Shown: piece by piece, positions 9,131 through 62,861 of the stretch
Layout of the letters: every line of letters begins with the position of its first letter
Position numbering within the stretch: the stretch's first letter is position 1
Source of the DNA: Flavobacterium luminosum
GTDB taxonomy: Bacteria; Bacteroidota; Bacteroidia; Flavobacteriales; Flavobacteriaceae
NCBI RefSeq assembly: GCF_023635005.1
Contig: NZ_JAMLJM010000010.1
Span: forward strand, 1-64,000
Reading direction: 5' to 3'
DNA: 64,000 bases
The notes under the pieces: generated by a model
What the model was told of the DNA's origin: nothing
Database searches by the model: none
What the model saw: the letters and a program-made list of their open reading frames with translations, nothing else
Position numbers and translations under genes: made by a program

Positions 9131-9156
9131 TTGTTAATAAAATTTGTTAATAAAAT
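9131..9156. repeat. Tandem 13-bp repeat TTGTTAATAAAAT x2
   Basis: Two exact adjacent copies (9131-9143, 9144-9156) lie between the divergent dprA and HU/SPOR genes. Each contains TGTTAATAA, the word that is also enriched at 60036-60493. It could be a protein-binding site. Confidence 0.6.
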
Positions 9157-24109: not shown

Positions 24110-24259
24110 AACGTTTAAAATATTTTTTTTAGAAAAGCCGTTTGTGTTTCTCATTTTCAAGGTTTTATCTTTGAGCTAATCTTCCTTTTTTGAAAGAATT
24201 CTTTTGAAGTTATTAACAAATAGAAATGGGATATGACTCTAAGATTGCTTATTTTTCAA

Positions 24260-24282
24260 CGATGAAATAAAGTATTTCATCG
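24260..24282. promoter_or_regulatory. Perfect 10-bp palindrome upstream of the RCC1 promoter
   Basis: CGATGAAATA (24260-24269) and TATTTCATCG (24273-24282) are perfect inverted repeats around a 3-base spacer, ending 18 bases before the -33 element of the RCC1 promoter. No T-run follows, so an operator for a dimeric regulator is more likely than a terminator. Confidence 0.5.
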
Positions 24283-24300
24283 AATAAAATGTCGATAAAA

Positions 24301-24330
24301 TTGTTAATAAATTATTTTTCGTTACTTTAG
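24301..24330 (+). promoter_or_regulatory. Promoter of the RCC1-repeat gene
   Basis: TTG (24301-24303), 19 bases, then TACTTTAG (24323-24330) has one mismatch to TANNTTTG. The leader to the start at 24355 is about 18 bases. Confidence 0.6.
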
Positions 24331-58723: not shown

Positions 58724-58822
58724 AACTCATGTTGATTGCTAGCTATTTTATAAAAAGTAAAGTTAGTTGAATTTTACTATCTCTTGAAATGATTTAATTA
58801 CTTTTGTGATTATTTGGATTGT

Positions 58823-59425
58823 ATGGATAACTTGCATATTATTGGTTATTTGGGCGTTTTCGTATTTGCCGTAATAGGTGTTTTAAAGGCTAGAACCAAA
58901 CGTTTTGATATTTTTGGAGCTGCTGTTTTAGCTTTTGTAACCGCTTATGGTGGCGGAACCATTAGAGATTTGCTCATTGGAATTAAACCCGTGAATTGGG
59001 TAAATGATAATTTGGCTGTTTTTATAGTATTGTTATCCACTGTAATTACCTTTTTCTTCAAACTCAATAATACCATTATCAGAAAACTGATTTTTTGGAT
59101 TGATGCTTTTGGGATAGGATTATTCACCATTGTGGGGATTCAAACAGCGCTTAAAGCGGACGTCAGTCAGGGATATTCGTTAATTATGGGAATCATAACC
59201 GCTACCTTTGGTGGATTAATTTCCGACGTATTGTGTAATAAAGTACCTAATTTATTAAAACCCGGTGAGTTATACGCTACGGCTTGTATCGTTGGGGGAA
59301 GTTTATATCTTTTGATGATTAACTATCATATCAATACAACAACGAGCATGATTGTTGGAATTTTGGTTACTGTAGTGGTACGTATTTTTTCAATTAGACG
59401 AAAATTACAATTACCTCGTATTTAA
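58823..59425 (+). CDS. Trimeric intracellular cation (TRIC) channel family protein
   Basis: A 200-residue membrane protein with seven predicted helices and two internal repeats, matching the TRIC/UPF0126 (YadS) family. The conserved glycine-rich segments are YGGGTIRDLLIG in the first half and ATFGGLISDVLCN in the second. The start at ATG 58823 is preferred to a TTG at 58814. A perfect TACTTTTG element is at 58799-58806. Probably a K+ channel. Confidence 0.9.
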   Translation: MDNLHIIGYLGVFVFAVIGVLKARTKRFDIFGAAVLAFVTAYGGGTIRDLLIGIKPVNWVNDNLAVFIVLLSTVITFFFKLNNTIIRKLIFWIDAFGIGLFTIVGIQTALKADVSQGYSLIMGIITATFGGLISDVLCNKVPNLLKPGELYATACIVGGSLYLLMINYHINTTTSMIVGILVTVVVRIFSIRRKLQLPRI

Positions 59426-59479: not shown

Positions 59480-59911
59480 TTATCGGCAAGCTATTTTTTT
59501 AACTCGGTTAGCATGTCTTCCTCCTTCAAATGGTGTTTCTAAAAAGGCTTGTACCATTGCTACTGCCTGAGGAATTGAAGTATATCGGGCAGGAATACTA
59601 ATCACATTAGCATCGTTGTGTTGACGGGCCAATTCTGCAATTTCAACGGTCCAGCACAAAGCACATCGTACATCCTGATGTTTGTTGGCAGTCATGGCTA
59701 TACCGTTACCGCTACCACAAATTACAATTCCAAAATCAGCTTTCTTAGTCTGAACATCATACGCTACCGGATGCCCAAAATCAGGATAATCGACACTATC
59801 AAAAGTATCGGTGCCGTGATTCACTACCGTATGTCCTAAATTTTCTAAAAATTCAACTATTGCTTTTTTGTAATCGGGACCTGCGTGATCGTTTCCTATT
59901 GATATAATCAT
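59480..59911 (-). CDS. rpiB: Ribose 5-phosphate isomerase B
   Basis: A 143-residue RpiB/LacAB enzyme interconverting ribose-5- and ribulose-5-phosphate. NDHAGPDYK at 7-15, the catalytic Cys65 in VICGSGNGIAMTANK, and the C-terminal GGRHANRVKKI are present. It has a consensus promoter and is the last minus-strand gene before the long gap 59912-60680. Confidence 0.96.
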   Translation of the reverse strand: MIISIGNDHAGPDYKKAIVEFLENLGHTVVNHGTDTFDSVDYPDFGHPVAYDVQTKKADFGIVICGSGNGIAMTANKHQDVRCALCWTVEIAELARQHNDANVISIPARYTSIPQAVAMVQAFLETPFEGGRHANRVKKIACR

Positions 59912-59942
59912 AATGCTATATTTGTTCTGTGTTGATTACGTA

Positions 59943-59974
59943 CAAAAATACAAAATCGCTTTCTTTTAATTCAA
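59943..59974 (-). promoter_or_regulatory. Promoter of rpiB
   Basis: On the minus strand TTG (59972-59974), 21 bases, then TATTTTTG (59943-59950), a full match to the consensus. The leader to rpiB is about 25 bases. Confidence 0.65.
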
Positions 59975-60680
59975 AACAAACCATATTAAATACTTGTTGT
60001 GTTTAAAAAAGGATGAAATCAACGATAAGTGCGTTTGTTAATAATTATTTTTAATTAAAATACTGTATTTCAGTATTTTAAATCGATTTTATAACCTCTT
60101 TTTTTACGATGTTAATAACGAATCACAATCCCTTTGTTTCTAAGAGGTTAACATTTAACATCATTTGTTAATAACTTTGAATAGAAATTTAGAACTTTTT
60201 TTCGGTTGTATGACAAAAAAGTGTAATCCAAAATTGAAATGAGAAAATCAAGAAAAGTTTCGGCAATTTGTTCTTAAATTATTCAACAATAAAACATAGT
60301 TTTCAACAGTTTTTCACAGATGAACTTTTCAAAAAAAGAACGTAAAACACAAAAACTAACAATTGTTAATAACCTTTATATTAGATTTCATTTACAACAG
60401 ATTATCTTTTCATAACAGTGTTAATATCTCAGTATAACTCTGTAAAACTTTAAAAAAAAACCAAAATAAGAAAAGTTTTCAGCCTTATTAACACCCTATC
60501 ATAATCATCATAAATTTTAAAATTTTAAAAATCTCTTTTTTGTTTTTTTAATTGTTGTTGAAAACTTTGAAAAGTTATGCAAGAAAAAAATTTAAAAGTT
60601 ATTTTTAAGCCAATTGTTTCTACCGATTTCTGTTTTCTGAATTCTTCTTTGTAATTTTAATAAAAATTAGAAAAGATACA
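59975..60680. other. Long AT-rich intergenic region, candidate replication origin
   Basis: No gene is visible in this stretch. It holds TGTTAATAA at 60036, 60110, 60166 and 60364, its complement TTATTAACA at 60485, and TGTTAATAT at 60419. It also has TTTTCAACA (60300), TTTTTCACA (60310) and TGTTGAAAA (60556). These resemble the DnaA box TTATCCACA with one to three changes. A perfect 9-bp hairpin AAAATACTG / CAGTATTTT is at 60057-60079. AT-rich tracts that could melt are around 60450-60540. Genes on either side point away. A long rnr leader is the alternative. Confidence 0.45.
60057..60079. repeat. Perfect 9-bp inverted repeat in the candidate origin
   Basis: AAAATACTG (60057-60065) and CAGTATTTT (60071-60079) around a 5-base loop. 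No T-run follows on either strand that would make it a standard terminator. Confidence 0.6.
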
Positions 60681-62861
60681 ATGAGTATGAAACCTAAAAA
60701 GTTTAGTAAAGGGGTTAAAGATTTTTCTGGAAAAATTTTAAAGATTCTTTCCAAAGAACCTAATAAAACTTTTAACTATAAACAAATTGCTTCCCGATTG
60801 GAAGTTGACGATACTAAGAGCCGAAATGAGATCATTAAAGATTTAAAAATTTTAGCTTCTAAAAAACAGATTATCGAGACCGAACCCGGTAAATATTTAG
60901 TCATAGCACAGAGTCAAGATTATTACGAAGGTACTATCGATATGACCTCTCGTAAAACAGCCTATTTTATATGTGAAGATTTCGAAGAAGATGTTTTCAT
61001 TCCAACTAATAATTTAAATCATGCTTTAGATGGAGATAAAGTTAAGGTTTACGTTTACAATAAGAGAAAAGGTAAAAGACCTGAAGCTGAAGTAATTGAA
61101 ATTATCGAAAGAAGTAAAACAGAATTTGTTGGAGTCATCGATATTCAAAAAAACTTTGCTTTTGTAACTACGGCAAATGCTAAAATGTATACCGATATTT
61201 TTATTCCTAAGGATAAAATTGGTGAAGCTAAAAATGGAGATGTGGTTTTGGCTAAAATTGAAGATTGGCCCAAAAAAGCAGATTCTCCTTTTGGTTCTGT
61301 GATTAAAGTCTTGGGAAGACCAGGAGAGCATGATACTGAAATTCATGCTATCTTGGCTGAATATGGACTTCCGTATGACTTTCCTCCCGAAGTAGAAGCT
61401 TATGCACAACAGTTGGATACATCGATTCATCCGAATGAAATTGCAAAGCGTCGTGATATGCGTAACGTACTGACTTTTACTATAGATCCCAAAGATGCTA
61501 AAGATTTTGACGATGCTTTATCATTTCAAAAGTTAGAAAATGGTCATTATGAAATTGGTATTCACATTGCCGATGTATCACACTATGTTCAGGAAGGAAC
61601 TATCTTAGATGAAGAAGCCTACCAACGAGGAACTTCTGTTTATTTGGTAGACAGAGTGGTTCCAATGTTACCCGAAGTTTTATCTAACTTCGCTTGCTCT
61701 CTTCGTCCTCAGGAAGAAAAATATACGTTTTCAGCAGTTTTTGAAATTAATGAAAAAGCACAAGTTACCAATCAATGGTTTGGTAGAACTGTGATTCATT
61801 CAGATCAACGTTTTTCTTATGAAGAAGCTCAGCACATCATTGAAACTCGCGGAAACAGCATCCCTGCTGAGATTTCTTTAACCGGAACAGAATATATTGT
61901 TCCAGATCCAATCGTAAATGCTACTCTAAAATTAGATGAACTTGCTAAGATATTCCGAAGAAACCGTCTTAATAATGGAGCTATTTCTTTTGATAAAGTG
62001 GAAGTAAAATTCAATCTTAATGAAAAAGCTGAACCTACCGGAGTGTATTTTAAAATTGCTAAAGATGCCAATCATTTAATTGAAGAATTTATGTTGTTGG
62101 CCAATCGAAAAGTAGCCGAATACATTGGTAAACAGCAAAAAACATTTGTGTATCGTATTCACGATGAACCCGATGAAAATAAGTTAATGAACCTTCAAGG
62201 TGTGATTTCTAAATTTGGGTACAGCATCAATTTTAAAAGTAAAGAGGCTATTTCAAAATCTTTGAATGATTTGTTAGTTGGTGTAGTTGGAAAAAAAGAA
62301 CAAAACATGGTCGATACTTTAGCTATTCGTACCATGAGTAAAGCAAAATATTCTACCGACAATATTGGTCATTACGGATTGGCTTTCGATTATTATTCAC
62401 ATTTTACCTCACCTATTCGTCGTTATCCTGACGTTATGGTACATCGTTTGTTACAGTACTATTTGGATGGAGGCAAAAGTGTGAGCGAAGAAGTCTATGA
62501 AGAAAAATGCGTACACACTTCCAATATGGAAAATTTAGCTACCAATGCCGAACGCGATTCTATTAAGTACATGCAAGTTAAATACATGCAGGACCACAAG
62601 GATCAGGAGTTTGTTGGTGTAATCTCCGGTGTGACCGAATGGGGTATTTATGTTGAAATCATCGAAAACAAATGTGAAGGAATGGTTCGTATCCGTGAAA
62701 TAAAAGATGATTATTATACGTTTGATGAAAAACAATATGCTTTAGTTGGTGAAATGACTAAAAGTCTTTTGCAATTAGGTGATGAAGTCATTGTTAAAGT
62801 AAAAAATGCCGATCTAATCAAAAAGCAATTGGATTATCATTTCATCCGAAAAAATGAATAA
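60681..62861 (+). CDS. rnr: Ribonuclease R
   Basis: A 726-residue 3'-5' exoribonuclease of the RNB family, degrading structured RNA. N-terminal winged helix at about 15-70, cold-shock domains to about 225, RNB catalytic domain with DPKDAKDFDDALSF (the metal-binding aspartates) and HFTSPIRRYPDVMVHRLL, and a C-terminal S1 domain at about 640-720. It is complete. Two nearby ATG codons (60681, 60687) could both start. It is preceded by the unusually long gap. Confidence 0.97.
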   Translation: MSMKPKKFSKGVKDFSGKILKILSKEPNKTFNYKQIASRLEVDDTKSRNEIIKDLKILASKKQIIETEPGKYLVIAQSQDYYEGTIDMTSRKTAYFICEDFEEDVFIPTNNLNHALDGDKVKVYVYNKRKGKRPEAEVIEIIERSKTEFVGVIDIQKNFAFVTTANAKMYTDIFIPKDKIGEAKNGDVVLAKIEDWPKKADSPFGSVIKVLGRPGEHDTEIHAILAEYGLPYDFPPEVEAYAQQLDTSIHPNEIAKRRDMRNVLTFTIDPKDAKDFDDALSFQKLENGHYEIGIHIADVSHYVQEGTILDEEAYQRGTSVYLVDRVVPMLPEVLSNFACSLRPQEEKYTFSAVFEINEKAQVTNQWFGRTVIHSDQRFSYEEAQHIIETRGNSIPAEISLTGTEYIVPDPIVNATLKLDELAKIFRRNRLNNGAISFDKVEVKFNLNEKAEPTGVYFKIAKDANHLIEEFMLLANRKVAEYIGKQQKTFVYRIHDEPDENKLMNLQGVISKFGYSINFKSKEAISKSLNDLLVGVVGKKEQNMVDTLAIRTMSKAKYSTDNIGHYGLAFDYYSHFTSPIRRYPDVMVHRLLQYYLDGGKSVSEEVYEEKCVHTSNMENLATNAERDSIKYMQVKYMQDHKDQEFVGVISGVTEWGIYVEIIENKCEGMVRIREIKDDYYTFDEKQYALVGEMTKSLLQLGDEVIVKVKNADLIKKQLDYHFIRKNE

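Follow-up and report, generated by a model that had tools for sequence, protein, structure and literature searches.

The rpiB–rnr intergenic region is a chromosomal replication origin in all likelihood

The gap between rpiB and rnr (positions 59912–60680, no strand assigned) is in all likelihood the chromosomal replication origin (oriC) of Flavobacterium luminosum, and the origin interpretation put forward in the initial annotation is supported by a box cluster, its uniqueness, a conserved layout and the skew minima of relatives. The window, that is, the whole 64,000-nt stretch analysed, lies on contig C2 (99,216 bp) of an assembly of 2.65 Mb in 25 contigs (G000). The ORFs flanking the gap, both with an NCBIfam name, encode ribose-5-phosphate isomerase B on the left (rpiB, 59480–59911, minus strand) and ribonuclease R on the right (rnr, 60681–62861, plus strand); the closest RpiB proteins are those of F. 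covae and F. columnare (90 and 89% identity, the top two among 80 named loci retained). The gap is 769 bp long, lacks any ORF of 80 codons and has a G+C content of 22.8%. It also holds the longest gene-free stretch of the window, as claimed, with 673 bp devoid of a stop-to-stop ORF of 90 codons, the next such stretch being 402 bp long and ended by the window edge. Gene directions are likewise those described at the outset: ORFs to the left of the gap are mostly on the minus strand, with a plus-strand ORF at 58814–59425 among them, and the three large ORFs on the right are all on the plus strand. A search of Rfam revealed no match at gathering score between 59,400 and 60,900.

A census of the gap in both directions yielded five TGTTAATAA, one TGTTAATAT, two TGTTGAAAA and one TGTGAAAAA. 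The five exact TGTTAATAA/TTATTAACA words of the initial annotation were all found, at 60036, 60110, 60166 and 60364 on the plus and at 60485 on the minus strand, together with its near copy TGTTAATAT at 60419. The three words listed there as DnaA-box-like, TTTTCAACA (60300–60308), TTTTTCACA (60310–60318) and TGTTGAAAA (60556–60564), are present too, but their separation from the TGTTAATAA motif is probably unwarranted: TGTTAATAA is probably the main DnaA-box form of the group and one and the same motif as these words. The sequence does show the hairpin of the original proposal (~60057–60079); judged by eye, it lacks conservation among six aligned species, and it was therefore left out of the case for an origin.

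The box cluster exceeds chance and is unique in the assembly

The estimate that far fewer than one such 9-mer should occur by chance was borne out by shuffling. None of 5,000 dinucleotide shuffles of the gap reached five TGTTAATAA (mean 0.076, maximum 3), and the wider box set (TGTTRATA plus TGTTGAAAA), counted 8 times in the gap, had a shuffle mean of 0.31 and a maximum of 4 (again 5,000 dinucleotide shuffles). Across the assembly, TGTTAATAA occurs 83 times, less often than its reversed control word (133), and 5 of the 83 copies lie in the gap. Equal density of the words elsewhere would have spoken against an origin; in the 2.65-Mb assembly, three TGTTAATAA fall within 1 kb at no place besides the gap. 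A box cluster well above chance, to which DnaA would bind, is thus confined to one intergenic gap. Contig C2 carries 13 of the 83 copies, 8 of them outside the gap, including a pair at window positions 9132–9153, in front of ORFs near 9.1 kb, and another at 24210–24310, between ORFs near 24.2 kb, the left one of which resembles by eye an ATP synthase a subunit; these pairs are possible DnaA-controlled promoters.

Box positions and directions are largely conserved among species

We aligned the window with the corresponding loci of F. covae, F. columnare, F. difficile, F. gelidilacus and F. jejuense, which resulted in a mean column identity of 54% over the whole alignment, the start of rnr in the relatives included. 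Among the predicted boxes, the TGTTAATAA words at 60166–60174 and 60364–60372 (both plus strand) are identical in all six species, the TTATTAACA word at 60485–60493 (minus) is kept in all six as TATTAACA, and the TGTTGAAAA word at 60556–60564 (plus) reads TGTTRAAAA in all six. Three further boxes vary in sequence while keeping their place and direction: TGTTAATAA at 60110–60118 (plus) is replaced by TGTTAATAG/TGTTAACAA in the relatives, TTTTCAACA at 60300–60308 (minus) by TTATTAACA in four of the five relatives and by TTATGAACA in the fifth, and the variant TGTTAATAT at 60419–60427 (plus) contains TGTTC or TGTTT in two of the five. The weak box TTTTTCACA at 60310–60318 (minus), which adjoins the 60300 box, matches ATTAACA in F. 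covae and F. columnare only. The layout expected of an oriC is largely kept across the six species, with the exception of the TGTTAATAA box at 60036–60044 (plus), a counterpart of which is absent in the five relatives.

Two blocks other than boxes are conserved as well, namely TAATCCAAAA at 60224–60233 (plus), which reads TAATCMAAAA across the six species, and CTATCATAATCATCA at 60496–60510 (plus), beside the 60485 box. Both are candidate sites of another factor or of the start of the unwinding zone, and the alignment makes CTATCATAATCATCA a possible start of that zone. Reading CTATCATAATCATCA by eye as DnaA-trios did not give a clean match and was given up; a literature search for the DnaA-trio in Bacteroidetes returned no paper. 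In the gap, only one 60-mer (60,035–60,094, over the unconserved hairpin) is less stable than the candidate DNA unwinding element (60497–60556, no strand assigned), which is located between the last two boxes. A box pair fitting this layout was found in 30 relatives. In 10 of them it is another pair, close to rpiB, and in 12 of the remaining 20 the stretch between the boxes belongs to the least stable tenth of its own gap.

By analogy with well-studied origins, DnaA, whose gene is on another contig, would bind the 8 or 9 ordered boxes, whose form is 5'-TTWTYAACA-3' (TGTTRAWAA on the other strand). DnaA-ATP would fill the boxes and assemble into a filament, the A+T-rich stretch at ~60,497–60,556 between the last two boxes would open, and helicases would be loaded there, so that two forks could leave leftward and rightward.

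The comparison was extended to the 80 named loci, 8 of which have no rnr in the stretch examined and 2 of which have gaps longer than 3 kb. Among the 70 left, 60 of the rnr-bounded gaps (<3 kb) contain at least three boxes, and for 59 of these 60 at most 2 of 200 shuffles scored as high; one F. paronense assembly accounts for four of the 59. The 11 of the 70 gaps outside these 59 comprise five without any box (L141 Myroides, L153 F. cauense, L159 Paenimyroides, L170, L172 F. supellecticarium) and six with a weak set (L144, L155, L183, L195, L200, L202). A separate count gave 4, 7 and 6 boxes in the gaps of G005, G006 and G036, the last being a closed genome of the same genus. As to the F. paronense assembly, it holds the rpiB|rnr locus four times (L148, L149, L150, L151), three of them on small contigs, which may reflect either redundancy of the assembly or an excess of origin-proximal sequence. 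A contig labelled Candidatus Nitrotoga (L146) also carries an rpiB|rnr locus of Flavobacterium type, with 4 boxes, and is probably a binning error.

GC-skew minima of two closed relatives fall in the orthologous gap

A skew minimum at the gap was one of the checks proposed initially. The cumulative GC minimum lies within the orthologous gap of F. covae and of G010, but 1.2 kb to the left of the gap on C2 itself. The 25 contigs make the F. luminosum assembly too fragmented for a whole-chromosome skew; along the 99 kb of C2, cumulative minima are at 58,728 (GC), 58,726 (strand) and 64,910 (GC3), near the gap rather than inside it. We therefore sampled three closed relatives, namely F. covae, G010 and G022.

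For F. covae (CP067379.1), 20 stretches of 20 kb and 80 contiguous kb were analysed. GC skew is positive in all eight stretches between 1.00 and 2.57 Mb and ranges from −0.112 to +0.003 in the other 12, and the minima within the 80 kb are at 989,292 (GC), 990,247 (GC3) and 996,160 (strand), with the rpiB start at 990,041. Third-position skew is irregular along this chromosome, with values such as −0.170 at 1.19 Mb and +0.084 at 3.23 Mb. For G010 (3.45 Mb), we used 20 stretches (~12% of the chromosome) and 320 contiguous kb. Two sign changes of third-position GC skew, near 1.04 Mb and near 2.7 Mb, are separated by about half the chromosome: values are negative from 2.93 Mb through 0.88 Mb, −0.004 at 2.76 Mb, and positive in the 1.04–2.61 Mb range, −0.046 at 2.24 Mb being the only exception. 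Plain GC skew shows the same trend with more scatter, reaching +0.054 at 0.17 Mb, for instance. Within the 320 kb, the GC minimum (1,040,057) is placed between the end of rnr (1,039,648) and the start of rpiB (1,040,725), with the GC3 and strand minima at 1,042,392 and 1,039,666. Cumulative GC skew thus switches at the gap in F. covae and G010, and not at this gene pair in G022. In the latter, the rpiB|rnr gap is only 182 bp long and boxless; local minima are at 974,513 (GC), 996,380 (strand) and 921,243 (GC3), the GC and strand ones 78–100 kb from the gap, and a box cluster at 999.4–999.8 kb directly precedes ybeY-mnmG.

The putative DnaA box carries A at position 6 and DnaA an altered recognition helix

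We compared counts of all 32 words of the form TGTNNAWA with those of 20 shuffles in 58 gaps, that is, the window and 57 named rnr-bounded gaps of 400–1,300 bp (the four F. paronense copies included). TAT(C/T)AACA and TTTCAACA proved strongly enriched, with 69 TATCAACA against 3.3 expected, 151 TATTAACA against 14.2 and 65 TTTCAACA against 9.9. The classical TATCCACA was not seen in these gaps (1.0 expected), and TTTCCACA was seen 6 times (2.1 expected). A classical origin would display TTATCCACA boxes (TnCACA), yet only TTTTTCACA (60310) ends in CACA in the window, and TTATCCACA forms no cluster in the assembly (26 sites, none on C2) or in G010 (30 sites). Since AACA words are enriched, TATCCACA is absent from the 58 gaps and TTATCCACA clusters are lacking in both genomes, the word of the gap is best read, as far as sequence tells, as a DnaA-box form with A instead of C at position 6.

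The DnaA of the analysed genome is a full DnaA (TIGR00362). Its alignment to domain IV of the E. coli protein (1j1v) evidenced that R399, R407 and K415 are kept and that RDHTT is changed to RDHAT, that is, T435 to A, in a numbering counted along the 1j1v chain, the end of which we take to be residue 467. DHAT was found in 14 of 16 DnaA loci, including all 10 of the window's genus, the other two having NHTT (G047) and DHST (G053). In E. coli DnaA, helix 434–451 reads the TnCACA half of the box, and the T435M protein is defective in box binding (PMC5742627). We infer that the helix change and the box change belong together, a proposal on which the wider comparison is mixed. TTATCCACA is in excess over its reversed control in G053 (88/20), as covariation predicts, but not in G047 (21/32), which is a misfit; the DHAT genomes gave 30/40 (G010), 27/22 (G049), 15/25 (G046) and 24/66 (G038). 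TTATCAACA exceeds its reversed control in G053 (84/38), G038 (120/60) and G049 (29/17), and not in G010 (100/102), G046 (56/70) or G047 (51/55). Given these mixed counts across the order, covariation of protein and box is a lead rather than a result.

The proposed origin is distant from dnaA

Origins linked to dnaA are common among bacteria. In F. luminosum, dnaA is on contig C1 and the proposed origin on C2, in accordance with the early remark that the two are not neighbours. The distance is ~0.9 Mb in F. covae (dnaA at 1,887 kb, within the positive-skew half, and the gap at 990 kb) and ~1.0 Mb in G010, where the DnaA domain match starts at base 415 and the gap is at 1,040 kb. The arrangement of a dnaA-linked origin, with dnaA beside it, is thus not that of these genomes, and the sampled 20 kb at dnaA together with the sampled neighbours contain no skew switch in F. 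covae or G010. A single TGTTAATA is found 494–513 bp before the dnaA ORF start in five of nine loci, including that of F. luminosum on C1 (L043, ~500 bp), and Dokdonia has TGTTAATA at −66 relative to dnaA; possibly, this word serves autoregulation.

The true origin might accordingly be sought at dnaA, with the rpiB|rnr cluster acting as a DnaA titration or control site, an alternative that could invoke the common linkage of origins to dnaA, the TGTTAATA ~500 bp before the gene in five of nine loci, and the DnaA-binding control sites outside oriC described in E. coli (datA, DARS). Against it, third-position skew is negative at dnaA in G010 and GC skew positive there in F. covae, without a switch in either; a single word is no cluster; and dnaA is reported not to fit the skew plot of Mariniflexile (PMC11278836). 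We consider an origin at dnaA very unlikely.

Some species carry the boxes before gltX instead

On C2 of F. luminosum, rnr is followed after ~7.5 kb by gltX and, across the adjoining gap, by a long ORF without NCBIfam name, ybeY and mnmG; G010, G011 and G009 have this block as well, and F. covae has most of it. Boxes before rpiB and before gltX were compared in 35 genomes of the genus. At least four boxes precede rpiB in 22 of the 35, and the gltX side of 20 of these has 0–2. Conversely, G009, G011 and G020 have 6–8 boxes before gltX and none before rpiB, with the stretches of G020 not bounded by the partner genes. No box precedes rpiB in G018, G022 and G027 (rpiB side alone in this comparison), and in the other seven genomes the rpiB-side stretch is absent or short (for example, 9 bp in G002, and 327 bp with 2 boxes in G021). 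These seven include G005, G006 and G036, for which the separate count above gave 4, 7 and 6 boxes.

In G009 and G011, rpiB and rnr still diverge, across 472 and 386 bp, respectively, without one box between them, and the gltX cluster is ~15–16 kb off. G009 has a distinct GC3 minimum (560,756), at 0.6 kb from the new cluster (561,359–561,796); the one in G011 (550,162) is 0.3 kb from the cluster (550,421–551,008) but shallow, on a curve nearly flat from 524 to 554 kb. Unlike the boxes, the GC and strand minima are at or nearer rpiB in both genomes (533,871 and 534,493 in G011; 553,335 and 546,614 in G009). Because the rpiB side is boxless and a cluster is present before gltX, the origin has probably moved in G009, G011 and G020, on skew evidence that is mixed. 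The published map of F. enshiense, on which the origin was placed at gltX by skew (PMC9867689), fits this reading. A GltX tree built from 31 proteins pairs G009 with G011 as sisters (99/98) and leaves G020 at an unresolved fork, so that one move to the gltX side is indistinguishable from two. Other families give mixed pictures as to which of the two sides, gltX or rpiB, is ancestral.

These genomes also bear on whether the gap might be a mere divergent promoter region of rpiB and rnr, its words bound by a transcription factor. The two genes do diverge and 769 bp would fit two promoters, but G009 and G011 retain the divergent gap without a box and have the boxes before other genes instead, and promoters would not explain why skew switches at the gap in two closed relatives; a promoter region alone is thus a highly improbable account of the gap.

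In G022, a second cluster of similar size, near 1,037–1,038 kb, is part of a dispersed repeat with the palindrome AGCTCCGTAGGAGC, which contains ten TGTTAATAA (C1:1037298–1048904; L115, L116) and is near an ORF that by eye resembles a REP-associated transposase. TGTTAATAA can therefore occur in repeats, as these ten copies at 1,037–1,049 kb illustrate, yet the words of the window have little in common in their surroundings when inspected by eye, most stay in place across six species where their flanks do not, and same-composition shuffles fail to yield them, all of which makes neutral A+T-rich or mobile repeats a scarcely credible source of the cluster.

Discussion

The rpiB|rnr origin is ordinary in kind and unusual in its box and neighbourhood, and very probably it is a real one. 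It resembles oriC of E. coli and B. subtilis in its 9-mer boxes in both directions, its A+T-rich zone and its location in an intergenic gap, and DnaA here likewise has a full domain IV. It differs from them in having A rather than C at box position 6, DHAT rather than DHTT in the protein, and rpiB and rnr as neighbours; the high-affinity boxes of E. coli and B. subtilis are TTATCCACA (PMC4285127). The predicted oriC of Elizabethkingia meningoseptica is similarly far from dnaA (741 kb vs 2,613 kb) but, unlike the one described here, has three TTATCCACA boxes with at most one mismatch (PMC8994065).

Published predictions for Flavobacteriaceae were likewise made by skew or Ori-Finder (PMC9867689, PMC11278836, PMC12843772), and those of the first two reports are also away from dnaA, which begins the respective sequences. 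Besides the F. enshiense map, the origin was predicted at mnmG in Mariniflexile litorale (PMC11278836), where a figure legend says otherwise, and in Algorimicrobium (PMC12843772). On C2 of F. luminosum, gltX and mnmG are ~10–17 kb from the rpiB|rnr gap. In their accessible parts, these reports mention no rpiB|rnr, no TTWTYAACA box form and no movement between two gaps. Judged by title or abstract opening, none of the literature matches listed dealt with Flavobacterium having an origin at rpiB|rnr or a box of the AACA form, and none of those listed for the literal 9-mers was about bacterial replication origins by title. DoriC presumably holds predictions for F. columnare, and the rpiB|rnr site may already be listed there.

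A broader proposal, which we advance tentatively and regard as somewhat more doubtful than probable, is that in Flavobacteriaceae T435 of the DnaA helix and position 6 of the box changed together (T to A and C to A, TnCACA becoming TnAACA), and that the origin became a movable module, freed from dnaA and shifted within one genus between gaps ~11–16 kb apart (rpiB|rnr and gltX|ybeY-mnmG), with the same type of box and new neighbours.

Collectively, these data offer a specific origin that can be put to the test in a genus with fish pathogens and polymer degraders among its members, of use for plasmid tools, for growth estimates from marker frequency and for rotating assemblies, for which dnaA is often the starting point (as in PMC9867689). 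They also suggest that searches for exact TTATCCACA would miss the origins of this group. The paired change in protein and box, if true, would be a natural experiment in initiator specificity, and with two gaps as alternatives one can ask how an essential origin moves.
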